Shown: positions 29,599 to 32,633 of the stretch, piece by piece
How positions within the stretch are numbered: position 1 is the stretch's first letter
How the letters are laid out: each line of letters starts with the position of its first letter
Assembly: GCA_002070115.1 (NCBI GenBank)
Contig: MWCO01000004.1
Span: 1 to 64,000, forward strand
Direction: 5' to 3'
Length of the DNA stretch: 64,000 bases
DNA from: Deltaproteobacteria bacterium ADurb.Bin207
GTDB taxonomy: Bacteria > Myxococcota_A > Polyangia > Polyangiales > Polyangiaceae
The notes under the pieces: model-generated
What the model was told of the DNA's origin: nothing
Seen by the model: only the letters and a program-made list of their open reading frames with translations
The model's database searches: none
Made by a program: the position numbers and the translations under genes

Positions 29599-30477
29599 TC
29601 AGTGAACGTGACCGTGCTCGATTTCGTCTTCCGTGGCAGCCTCCACCTTGAGTATCTTGACTTCAAACTGCAAAACCTTGCCTGCCAACGGATGATTACC
29701 GTCCAAACGAACGCTCTCGTCATTCACATCGATGACCATCATATGAACCTGCGCTCCGGTGGGATGCTGCGCCGTCACGATCTCGCCAAGCGTGACATCC
29801 TGCGGCAATTTCGAACGAGGAACCTCGATGATGCGCTGCTCGTCATGATCACCAAAAGCCTCGGAAGGCTGCAACGTTACACGAATCTCATCGCCCGCTT
29901 GCTTGCCGGCAATGGCTTTTTCCAGTCCTTCGATTCCCCCCGAGCCTTGTAAGTAGCGCATCGCGCTGCCTGGCTCCGAAGCTTCGATGAGATTGCCGCC
30001 CTCATCGCGAATGGCAAACTCCATCGTGACAATCCGTCCGTCACGAACGTCCGCAGGCCCTTCGATAGGCGGTCGCTTCGCCTCGTGACCATGATGGCCG
30101 CCGCATTGTCCTGCCCCACCTCCACAGGTCTGCGCTTTGCCGAATGGGCGGCACTTGCCTTCCGTATACATCGAAACCGCATCGCGCACCGTCGAAGCGT
30201 CTTCTTTGAAAAACACGTCGATACCGACGCTTTGAAAACCGGCCAGCGGACGCATCCCCATGCCGCCCGCCACAAGTACCTCGACTCCGTTGTCTTTCAA
30301 CAAATGAACGGGAGCCATGCATCCGCCATGCTCGTGCCCCCCATTGGGAATGAGACGAACCTCGCCTACTTTGCCGTCAGAAACATGAATCAGCGTGAAC
30401 ACATCGCAATGACCGAAGTGTTCGGAGATGGGGGCGTCGAGCCCACCAGGCATATCGGAAGGGATGGCAATGAGCAC
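29599..30477 (-). CDS. Fusion of NifX-type cofactor-binding domain with SlyD-type FKBP prolyl isomerase
   Basis: The 292-residue protein joins two families. Residues 1-120 are a dinitrogenase iron-molybdenum-cofactor (NifX/NifB-C) domain: MLIAIPSDMPGG, ISEHFGHCDVFTLI and VLVAGGMGMRPLAGFQSVGIDVF. A Gly/His/Cys linker follows (CGGGAGQCGGHHGHE). Residues 147-292 are a SlyD-like FKBP: AMRYLQGSGGIEGLEKAIAGKQAGDE, the insert-in-flap region, NHPLAGKVLQFEV and the ending EIEHGHVH. SlyD is a metal-binding chaperone that helps nickel-enzyme maturation; NifX-type domains hold metal clusters. Together they suggest a metallochaperone. The start is GTG 30477 behind AAAGGAG. The gene follows metG on the same strand by 24 bases. 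No nitrogenase genes are nearby. Confidence 0.88.
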   Translation of the reverse strand: MLIAIPSDMPGGLDAPISEHFGHCDVFTLIHVSDGKVGEVRLIPNGGHEHGGCMAPVHLLKDNGVEVLVAGGMGMRPLAGFQSVGIDVFFKEDASTVRDAVSMYTEGKCRPFGKAQTCGGGAGQCGGHHGHEAKRPPIEGPADVRDGRIVTMEFAIRDEGGNLIEASEPGSAMRYLQGSGGIEGLEKAIAGKQAGDEIRVTLQPSEAFGDHDEQRIIEVPRSKLPQDVTLGEIVTAQHPTGAQVHMMVIDVNDESVRLDGNHPLAGKVLQFEVKILKVEAATEDEIEHGHVH

Positions 30478-30501
30478 GGTAATCTCCTTTGTGGTTGAGG
30501 C

Positions 30502-32592
30502 TCAGCGGACGACGGAGCCGGGCTCTGCGTCAGCGGATAGAGCGAAAAGACGGTCTTCACGGTCTGTAGCCATAAGCATCATTCCGTGGCTTTCTAGTCC
30601 CATCATGGTACGAGGGGCGAGATTGGCCACCACGATGACGTTTCGCCCGATCAAGTGCTCGGGCTTGAAGTGCAGCGCTACCCCCGCGAGAATCTGCCGG
30701 GTCTCGAACCCCAGATCCACCTCGCAACGCAGGAGTTTTTTCGACTTTTTTACGGGTTCACAGGAAATCACGCGACCAACCCGAAGGTCGAGTTTGGCAA
30801 AGTCATCGTAAGTAATCGTATCACCCATGGGAAGGAAAGCGGCTTTCGGTGCCGGGGCTGCAGGCATGGCCGCGTCGAGCTTCGCGCGCTGTTTGGCCAC
30901 CTGCTCGTCTTGCACCTTGTGAAAAAGGATTTCAATGGGACCCAGGGTTTGGCCTGCCTCGATGAGCGGACGAACCGCGTCATCCCAGTGTATCGTGGCT
31001 TGGGTGCCAGATGCACTGCTCACGCCGTCGATCCCCAGCATGCGACGCACACTGGCCGCAGTAAACGGAAGGAATGGATCGATCAAGATGGACAAGCAGG
31101 CGCAAAGTTGCGCGGCCACGTGAATGGTGTTGCCGCAGGCTCGCGGGTCAGATTTGCGCGTAGCCCATGGCGCGGCATCGTTGAAGTACTTGTTTCCCAC
31201 CCTCGCCAACGCCATCACCTCGCTCAACGCCTCGCGGAAATGGAAAGACTCCAAATGTTCCGCGACGATGGCCGGATAGCGCGCGATTTCCGCGAGCATC
31301 GCCGAATCCGCTTCCGAAGGATGTTCAAGAGACGGGATTTTTCCGTCGAAATATCGGACCGCAAACGTCAAACTGCGGTTGATCAAGTTGCCAAGGGTAT
31401 CCGCAAGTTCATTGTTGATATGGGCTTGAAAGTCGGTGAACGAAAAATCCGCGTCTTTGGTTTCAGGAAGAATGCGAGCTAGCGAATACCGCAGGTAATC
31501 CGCTGGAAAGTCTTCCAAAAATTCGTGGAGCCATACCGCCCATCCACGGCTCGTCGATAGCTTCTGCCCTTCCAAGTTGAGAAATTCGTTGGCCGGTACC
31601 GCGTCGGGAAGCACGAATCCGCCGTGCGCTTGGAGCATCGCCGGAAAAATCAAGCAGTGAAACACGATGTTATCCTTGCCAATGAACTGCACGAGCCGCG
31701 TGCCAGGGTCCTGCCACCATCGCTTCCAGTCGTCCGGCTGCCCTTGCACCTGCGCCCACTCCGCCGTGAACGAAATATATCCAATCGGCGCGTCGAACCA
31801 CACATAAAGCACCTTGCCCGTCGCATCGATACCCGCTTTTTCCGCGGATTTTTTCGGAACTGGCACGCCCCAGGATTGATCTCGCGTCACGGCGCGATCC
31901 CCAAGCCCCTCCTGCAACCAACTTCTCACCTGACCCAACACATTGACTTTCCAATCTTCGTGATGGCTCAACCAAGCCTCCAACTTGGGCTGCAGCACAC
32001 CCAGAGGCAAGTACCAATGCGTGGTCTCTCGCACTTCCGGAATCGCATCCGAAATGACACTGCGTGGGTTTTTCAAGTCTTTTGGACTCAACGAGCGACC
32101 GCATTTCTCACACTGGTCCCCGTAAGCGTCGTCGTATTCACAATGCGGGCACGTGCCCCGAACGAATCGATCCGCCAAAAACATCCCGGCCTTCGGATCG
32201 AAAAGCTGCGATTCCGTTTTCTGCACGAACGAGCTTTTCTCGTCTAACACCGAGAAAAACGCCTGACTCGTGTCCGCGTGGACCGCCCCCGAAGTCCTGC
32301 CGAAATGATCGAAACTCATTCCAAAAGCCGCAAATGCGTCGCGCATCTGCACGTGGAACCGATCCACGATCGCTTGCGGCGATACCCCGTCTTTTCGCGC
32401 ACGAAGCACAATCGGCACCCCGTGCTCATCCGAACCACAGATGAACAAAACCGGTTTACCGCGTAAACGCTGGAAGCGAACGAAAATATCTGCGGGCAGA
32501 TAAGCACCCGCTAGGTGTCCGATATGAAGGGGGCCGTTGGCGTACGGCAGCGCCGCGGTCACGAGAATTCGTTCAAAAGTCGCTGAAGTCAT
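30502..32592 (-). CDS. metG: Methionyl-tRNA synthetase
   Basis: The 696-residue enzyme charges tRNA-Met with methionine. It begins MTSATFERILVTAALPYANGPLHIGH, with the HIGH motif as PLHIGHLAG, and the KMSKS loop as KLSTSRGW near residue 350. The zinc knuckle CPHCEYDDAYGDQCEKCG marks the MetRS-type connective domain. The C-terminal ~110 residues form a tRNA-binding OB domain (FAKLDLRVGRVIS, ANLAPRTMMGLESHGM), as in bacterial dimeric MetRS. ATG 32592 is the second ATG in the frame. It leads an apparent two-gene unit with the NifX-SlyD gene. Confidence 0.98.
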   Translation of the reverse strand: MTSATFERILVTAALPYANGPLHIGHLAGAYLPADIFVRFQRLRGKPVLFICGSDEHGVPIVLRARKDGVSPQAIVDRFHVQMRDAFAAFGMSFDHFGRTSGAVHADTSQAFFSVLDEKSSFVQKTESQLFDPKAGMFLADRFVRGTCPHCEYDDAYGDQCEKCGRSLSPKDLKNPRSVISDAIPEVRETTHWYLPLGVLQPKLEAWLSHHEDWKVNVLGQVRSWLQEGLGDRAVTRDQSWGVPVPKKSAEKAGIDATGKVLYVWFDAPIGYISFTAEWAQVQGQPDDWKRWWQDPGTRLVQFIGKDNIVFHCLIFPAMLQAHGGFVLPDAVPANEFLNLEGQKLSTSRGWAVWLHEFLEDFPADYLRYSLARILPETKDADFSFTDFQAHINNELADTLGNLINRSLTFAVRYFDGKIPSLEHPSEADSAMLAEIARYPAIVAEHLESFHFREALSEVMALARVGNKYFNDAAPWATRKSDPRACGNTIHVAAQLCACLSILIDPFLPFTAASVRRMLGIDGVSSASGTQATIHWDDAVRPLIEAGQTLGPIEILFHKVQDEQVAKQRAKLDAAMPAAPAPKAAFLPMGDTITYDDFAKLDLRVGRVISCEPVKKSKKLLRCEVDLGFETRQILAGVALHFKPEHLIGRNVIVVANLAPRTMMGLESHGMMLMATDREDRLFALSADAEPGSVVR

Positions 32593-32605
32593 GGTTCGGC
32601 GGGCC

Positions 32606-32633
32606 AACATAATGAATCGACCAGGATCCGCAA
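32606..32633 (-). promoter_or_regulatory. Possible metG promoter
   Basis: On the minus strand TTGCGG (32633-32628) lies 16 bases before TATGTT (32611-32606), which ends 13 bases upstream of the metG ATG. The -10 box is fair and the -35 box is weak. The short untranslated leader is consistent with the missing Shine-Dalgarno sequence. Confidence 0.3.

Follow-up and report, generated by a model that had tools for sequence, protein, structure and literature searches.

Why should a NifX-type domain and a SlyD-type FKBP be joined in a single protein, and what could such a protein do for its host? This question is raised by a gene of Deltaproteobacteria bacterium ADurb.Bin207, which lies in the window (the whole analysed stretch of 64,000 nucleotides) at positions 29599..30477. 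The sequence-only reading had placed the gene correctly without giving its strand, which is the minus strand. The open frame and its translation comprise 292 amino acids, from a GTG start to a stop codon at 29599-29601, and a ribosome-binding site AAGGAG can be read on the same strand at 30484..30489, six bases 5' of the start. The upstream neighbour is metG (methionyl-tRNA synthetase; 30502..32610, minus strand; Pfam tRNA-synt_1g, E 2.6e-155). Both genes are on one strand and are separated by 24 bp, in which no terminator-like site was seen on inspection; the proximity to metG noted earlier is thus borne out, and the two genes may be cotranscribed. No nitrogenase or hydrogenase genes were recognised among the immediate neighbours examined, in line with what had been said before, and the [NiFe] hydrogenase genes of this genome sit elsewhere.

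The architecture proposed at the outset, a NifX-type domain, a Cys/His linker and a SlyD-type FKBP in one protein, is confirmed by Pfam and fold matches. The NifX-type domain comprises residues 1-112 (30142..30477, minus strand): PF02579 matches residues 14-105 (E 3.9e-19, over its curated cut-off), and residues ~1-118 of the structural model match ORP (Z 17.8), TM1816 (Z 17.0) and the NafY core 1p90 (Z 13.1). The conserved positions are H20 (in an HFGHC motif), C24, H48 and C53. H20, H48 and C53 are invariant among 15 fused and stand-alone relatives, and two of the seven fusions lack C24, so that the ligands flanking the linker are not universal. In addition, residues 15-108 match the C-terminal NifX-type domain of the iron-sulfur cluster carrier MrpORP (E 1.6e-14; 54 bits against a cut-off of 450); the match is restricted to this C-terminal part, and the N-terminal Mrp-type ATPase domain of MrpORP is absent from the fusion.

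Among proteins of this fold, NifX holds NifB-co via a histidine and hands it over, a histidine serves for cluster carriage in NifX as well as in NafY, and the latter is a NifX-like carrier with two domains (PMC13128457). The fusion shares with them the fold and has an invariant histidine in its HFG motif; this H20, a candidate counterpart of the cluster-binding H35 of NifX, lies near the expected spot within the NafY alignment range. As in NafY, the carrier domain is tethered to another domain (PMC13128457), although the partner is SlyD in the fusion and a targeting domain in NafY. The fusion differs from NifX and NafY also in the additional conserved Cys24 and Cys53 and in that no nif genes were recognised among the neighbours examined.

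The SlyD-type FKBP domain occupies residues 148-292 (29602..30036, minus strand). PF00254 matches residues 142-216 (E 1.4e-6, over its curated cut-off), and the NCBIfam SlyD model PRK10737 matches residues 148-292 (E 3.4e-24) with a score of 85.8 bits, below the 174-bit equivalog cut-off of a model that includes the tail. In the AlphaFold model, for which fused and stand-alone relatives were aligned, residues 142-292 cover all of the T. thermophilus SlyD 4odm, including its insert-in-flap domain (Z 18.8, rmsd 1.2). This chaperone domain corresponds to residues ~216-259 (29701..29832, minus strand), the approximate limits following from its alignment with E. coli SlyD; T. thermophilus SlyD is also aligned over its full length. 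Since the mean pLDDT is 92 and the pTM is 0.58, the folds of the domains are reliable while their relative orientation is not. No match to the fusion was found among predicted viral structures at E 0.001. The genome of the window carries also a separate SlyD-type FKBP with a Cys-rich C-terminus (SCSPSACAGCGGSCH; L151:471-1139, contig C5).

The FKBP half thus resembles the SlyDs of E. coli, T. thermophilus and H. pylori in its fold and insert-in-flap domain over the full length, but several changes are found in its active site. Residues F154, E165 and F208 are the equivalents of E. coli SlyD Y13, D24 and Y68. The Y13 equivalent is changed in 4/7 fusions versus 3/40 stand-alone SlyDs (p 0.006), and that of D24 in 3/7 versus 1/40 (p 0.008). 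One can suggest that the FKBP half has lost its prolyl isomerase activity and serves only as a client-binding chaperone, which would be compatible with any of the readings considered below. However, the changes are mostly mild, Tyr-Asp-Tyr is kept at the three positions in 3/7 fusions, and in T. thermophilus SlyD the Y63F mutant retains 76% activity while D23A results in an about twofold loss of kcat (PMC5034536). Because these mutants keep much of their activity, a weakened isomerase is possible, and its complete loss seems very improbable to us from the residues compared.

The Cys/His linker, residues 113-134 (GKAQTCGGGAGQCGGHHGHEAK; 30076..30141, minus strand), is modelled with pLDDT under 50, residues 120-130 being disordered, and the linker of each of the seven Myxococcota fusions contains 2-3 Cys and 3-6 His. 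It is followed by a junction, residues 135-147 (RPPIEGPADVRDG; 30037..30075, minus strand), in which R135, P137 and G140 are invariant in 7/7 fusions. A C-terminal His/Cys metal-binding tail is present in many SlyDs, though not in all. Such a tail (at least two His/Cys after the core) was detected in 34/39 stand-alone Myxococcota SlyDs and in 0/7 fusions (Fisher p 1.5e-5, an indicative value since the sequences are related). The domain had previously been described as a complete SlyD with a His-rich end; this does not hold, because the end consists of HGHVH only (29602..29616, minus strand). HGHxH forms the exact C-terminus of 5/7 fusions, is absent in 2/7, and is no more than a short motif that the cores of ordinary SlyDs have as well. 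Since the Cys part of the linker aligns with CGGGxxCHH, the sequence at the C-terminal end of stand-alone NifX proteins, the linker is probably, at least in part, the old NifX C-terminus with added His. The metal-binding segment therefore appears, as far as sequence comparison can tell, to have moved from the SlyD C-terminus to a place between the domains.

An architecture of this kind could be an artefact, with two separate genes in close relatives and a frameshift in the window. This was found not to be so: six further Myxococcota genomes encode the fusion intact and at full length (43-59% identity), three families being represented in all, and seven intact single-frame fusions in seven genomes exclude a frameshift or an assembly artefact. 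A full-length search in the family of the window revealed the fusion in 4/108 genomes belonging to four genera, namely the window, G015 (59%), G674 (53%) and G026 (51%). The fusions of G347, G146 and G284, which represent two further families, came from a scan of loci obtained in a phylum-wide PF02579 search. No further fusions were detected in the class of G146 (71 genomes, 3/71 in total) or in 377 genomes drawn from the phylum. In 7/7 fusions, both PF02579 and PF00254 exceed their cut-offs.

The phylogenies of the two halves are compatible with a common history of the Myxococcota fusions. The FKBP halves fall among myxobacterial SlyDs (support 64/69) and fit one origin (p-AU 0.75); the NifX halves fit one origin as well (p-AU 0.44), with a few stand-alone relatives intermixed in the tree. 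There, the sequences of the window and G015 cluster with that of G347, a genome of another class (99/93), and this suggests transfer within the phylum. Neither in G674 nor in G146 (fusions L107 and L081; genome completeness 96% and 89%) was another SlyD-type protein found, a hint that the fusion may be the only SlyD there.

Among the neighbours examined, no gene is common to all seven fusion genomes: the fusion adjoins genes for a glycosyltransferase in G015, an SDR enzyme in G674, a Fer4 protein in G026, DarP in G146 and a DUF4336 protein in G284, and in none of the other fusion genomes examined does the fusion lie next to metG. The neighbouring metG thus carries little information, and a special link to this gene is not supported. 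The lack of a common neighbour, together with the rarity of the fusion (4/108 family genomes and 3/71 in another class), would fit a tolerated accident in which NifX and SlyD were joined without cooperating. We consider such an accident improbable: the junction is conserved, the loss of the tail accompanies the linker, and the two domains were probably brought together at least twice.

The latter point comes from the gut bacterium Lachnospira eligens, in which a search with the NifX half, confined to plasmid records, revealed a further fusion. WP_012740742.1, annotated only as “FKBP-type peptidyl-prolyl cis-trans isomerase”, is encoded on a 627-kb plasmid (L158:4977-5891; NC_012780.1 433209-434123). 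Its 304 residues show the same order as in the window: PF02579 (9-96), a Cys/His-rich linker and a SlyD-type FKBP lacking the C-terminal tail. The two proteins differ in that they share 27% identity, the NifX half of the L. eligens protein is from another subfamily, and its linker far exceeds that of the window in length and Cys content. In the trees, the NifX half of the L. eligens protein falls with proteins of Treponema, Roseburia and Subdoligranulum (SH-aLRT 98), while alphaproteobacterial SlyDs are the companions of the FKBP half (95). For the NifX half, the hypothesis that all eight fusions share one origin is rejected (p-AU 5e-6); for the FKBP half it is not (0.22). Since the shared origin of the NifX half is rejected, NifX and SlyD were probably joined at least twice; the architecture is not unique to myxobacteria, and nothing argues more strongly for a joint function of the pair than its recurrence in another phylum.

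Outside Myxococcota, the closest relatives of the NifX halves are mostly stand-alone Desulfobacterota proteins of ~130 residues (45-50% identity), many of which end with CGGGxxCHH. They resemble the fusion in that this tail aligns with its linker, and differ in having no FKBP partner in the genomes searched, among the matches listed. No NifX-FKBP fusion occurred among the matches listed for 258 genomes of Desulfobulbia and for a phylum-wide sample of 395, the lists being sorted so that a full-length fusion would rank first. The stand-alone Desulfobacterota genes typically adjoin a DUF134 gene, which follows them in the loci examined; certain Desulfobacterota as well as Treponema and Roseburia have the DUF134 and NifX-type domains fused, with DUF134 first (loci for both arrangements: L035:4530-4814, L036:4511-4807, L118:1501-2238, L161:871-1587). 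The genome of the window possesses other NifX-type genes as well. One of them, located directly downstream of a sigma-54-type regulator gene, encodes a 263-aa protein with apparently two tandem NifX-type domains (L003:1057-1848, contig C36). At ~9000-12500 of L113 (contig C18), two NifX-type genes are accompanied by a ferredoxin-like gene and P-loop ATPase genes, an arrangement resembling the Fe-S carrier cluster of anaerobes.

The fusion genomes have one more feature in common. In 7/7 of them, a large subunit of [NiFe] hydrogenase is encoded that has both CxxC motifs, while any PF00374 match was found in 45/108 family genomes and in 11/71 genomes of the class of G146. The joint probability of a hydrogenase in all fusion genomes is 8e-5 if the genomes are independent, which they are not. 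Moreover, 11/11 family genomes bearing any PF02579 match have a PF00374 match (p 3e-5), and the link to hydrogenase may therefore be a general trait of NifX-type proteins or of an anaerobic lifestyle.

Taken at the level of sequence, these data suggest a single protein for metal delivery as the best reading for the fusion, and this reading is strengthened by the second occurrence in Lachnospira as well as by the Cys/His segment found in place of the usual SlyD tail. Both halves have relatives engaged in metal trafficking: the C-terminal segment of SlyD supplies nickel to hydrogenases (PMC11198818), and SlyD binds Fe-S assembly proteins, namely IscS, IscU and SufS of E. coli and MisSU of H. pylori (PMC10653786). 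We propose, with a confidence that stops a little short of an even chance, that the fusion may be a two-domain metallochaperone, which would pass a metal or a metal-sulfur cluster on to a client bound by its SlyD part. The NifX-type domain and the Cys/His linker would hold a metal ion or a small metal-sulfur cluster; the SlyD-type domain, judging by its family, would bind an unfolded or half-folded client via the insert-in-flap domain; and the metal would be released into the client while it folds. The linker would stand in for the missing His/Cys tail, the loss of the tail being read from the sequences and its replacement being presumed. The most likely clients would be metalloenzymes of the anaerobic lifestyle, with the [NiFe] hydrogenase or its iron-sulfur subunit as the first candidate by association.

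On the sequence, the cargo may be either nickel or a metal-sulfur cluster; the broader metallochaperone may be nearly an even call, and a protein that carries iron-sulfur or mixed metal-sulfur clusters only, without nickel, its SlyD docking on Fe-S assembly proteins or clients, is possible but rather unlikely. The cluster-only version fits the clusters carried by NifX-type domains of known function (PMC13128457), the match of the NifX half to the C-terminal part of MrpORP and the interaction of SlyD with IscS, IscU, SufS and MisSU (PMC10653786); on the other side, the His-rich part of the linker resembles a nickel or zinc site more than a cluster site, and 7/7 fusion genomes bear a hydrogenase. 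A cofactor-insertion chaperone of a new class, in which the NifX domain would carry a pre-assembled metal-sulfur cluster and insert it into a client that its SlyD holds open, and which would have evolved separately in Myxococcota and Bacillota, is to our mind an unlikely proposal. Slightly more doubtful still is a metal buffer or detoxification protein, whose Cys/His linker would soak up excess metal with the folded domains only stabilising it: a Cys/His-rich linker is indeed found in 7/7 fusions and is far richer in L. eligens, but family-specific conserved residues are kept in both folded domains, and efflux or metal-resistance genes were not recognised among the neighbours examined.

The fusion is apparently undescribed. 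Both domains are already known, and their fusion is visible in automatic annotation; however, no publication describing the NifX-SlyD architecture, or naming both domains together, was found among open-licence papers, which agrees with the initial impression that the architecture is not an established family. To our knowledge, the hand-over of metal to a protein during folding is poorly known. Nickel delivery and iron-sulfur assembly have each been connected with SlyD, in separate contexts, and clusters are carried by NifX-type proteins. The fusion occurs in two phyla, and its metal-binding segment sits between carrier and chaperone; this suggests that both activities can cooperate. It represents one small protein in which metal loading, client binding and folding may be measured jointly.
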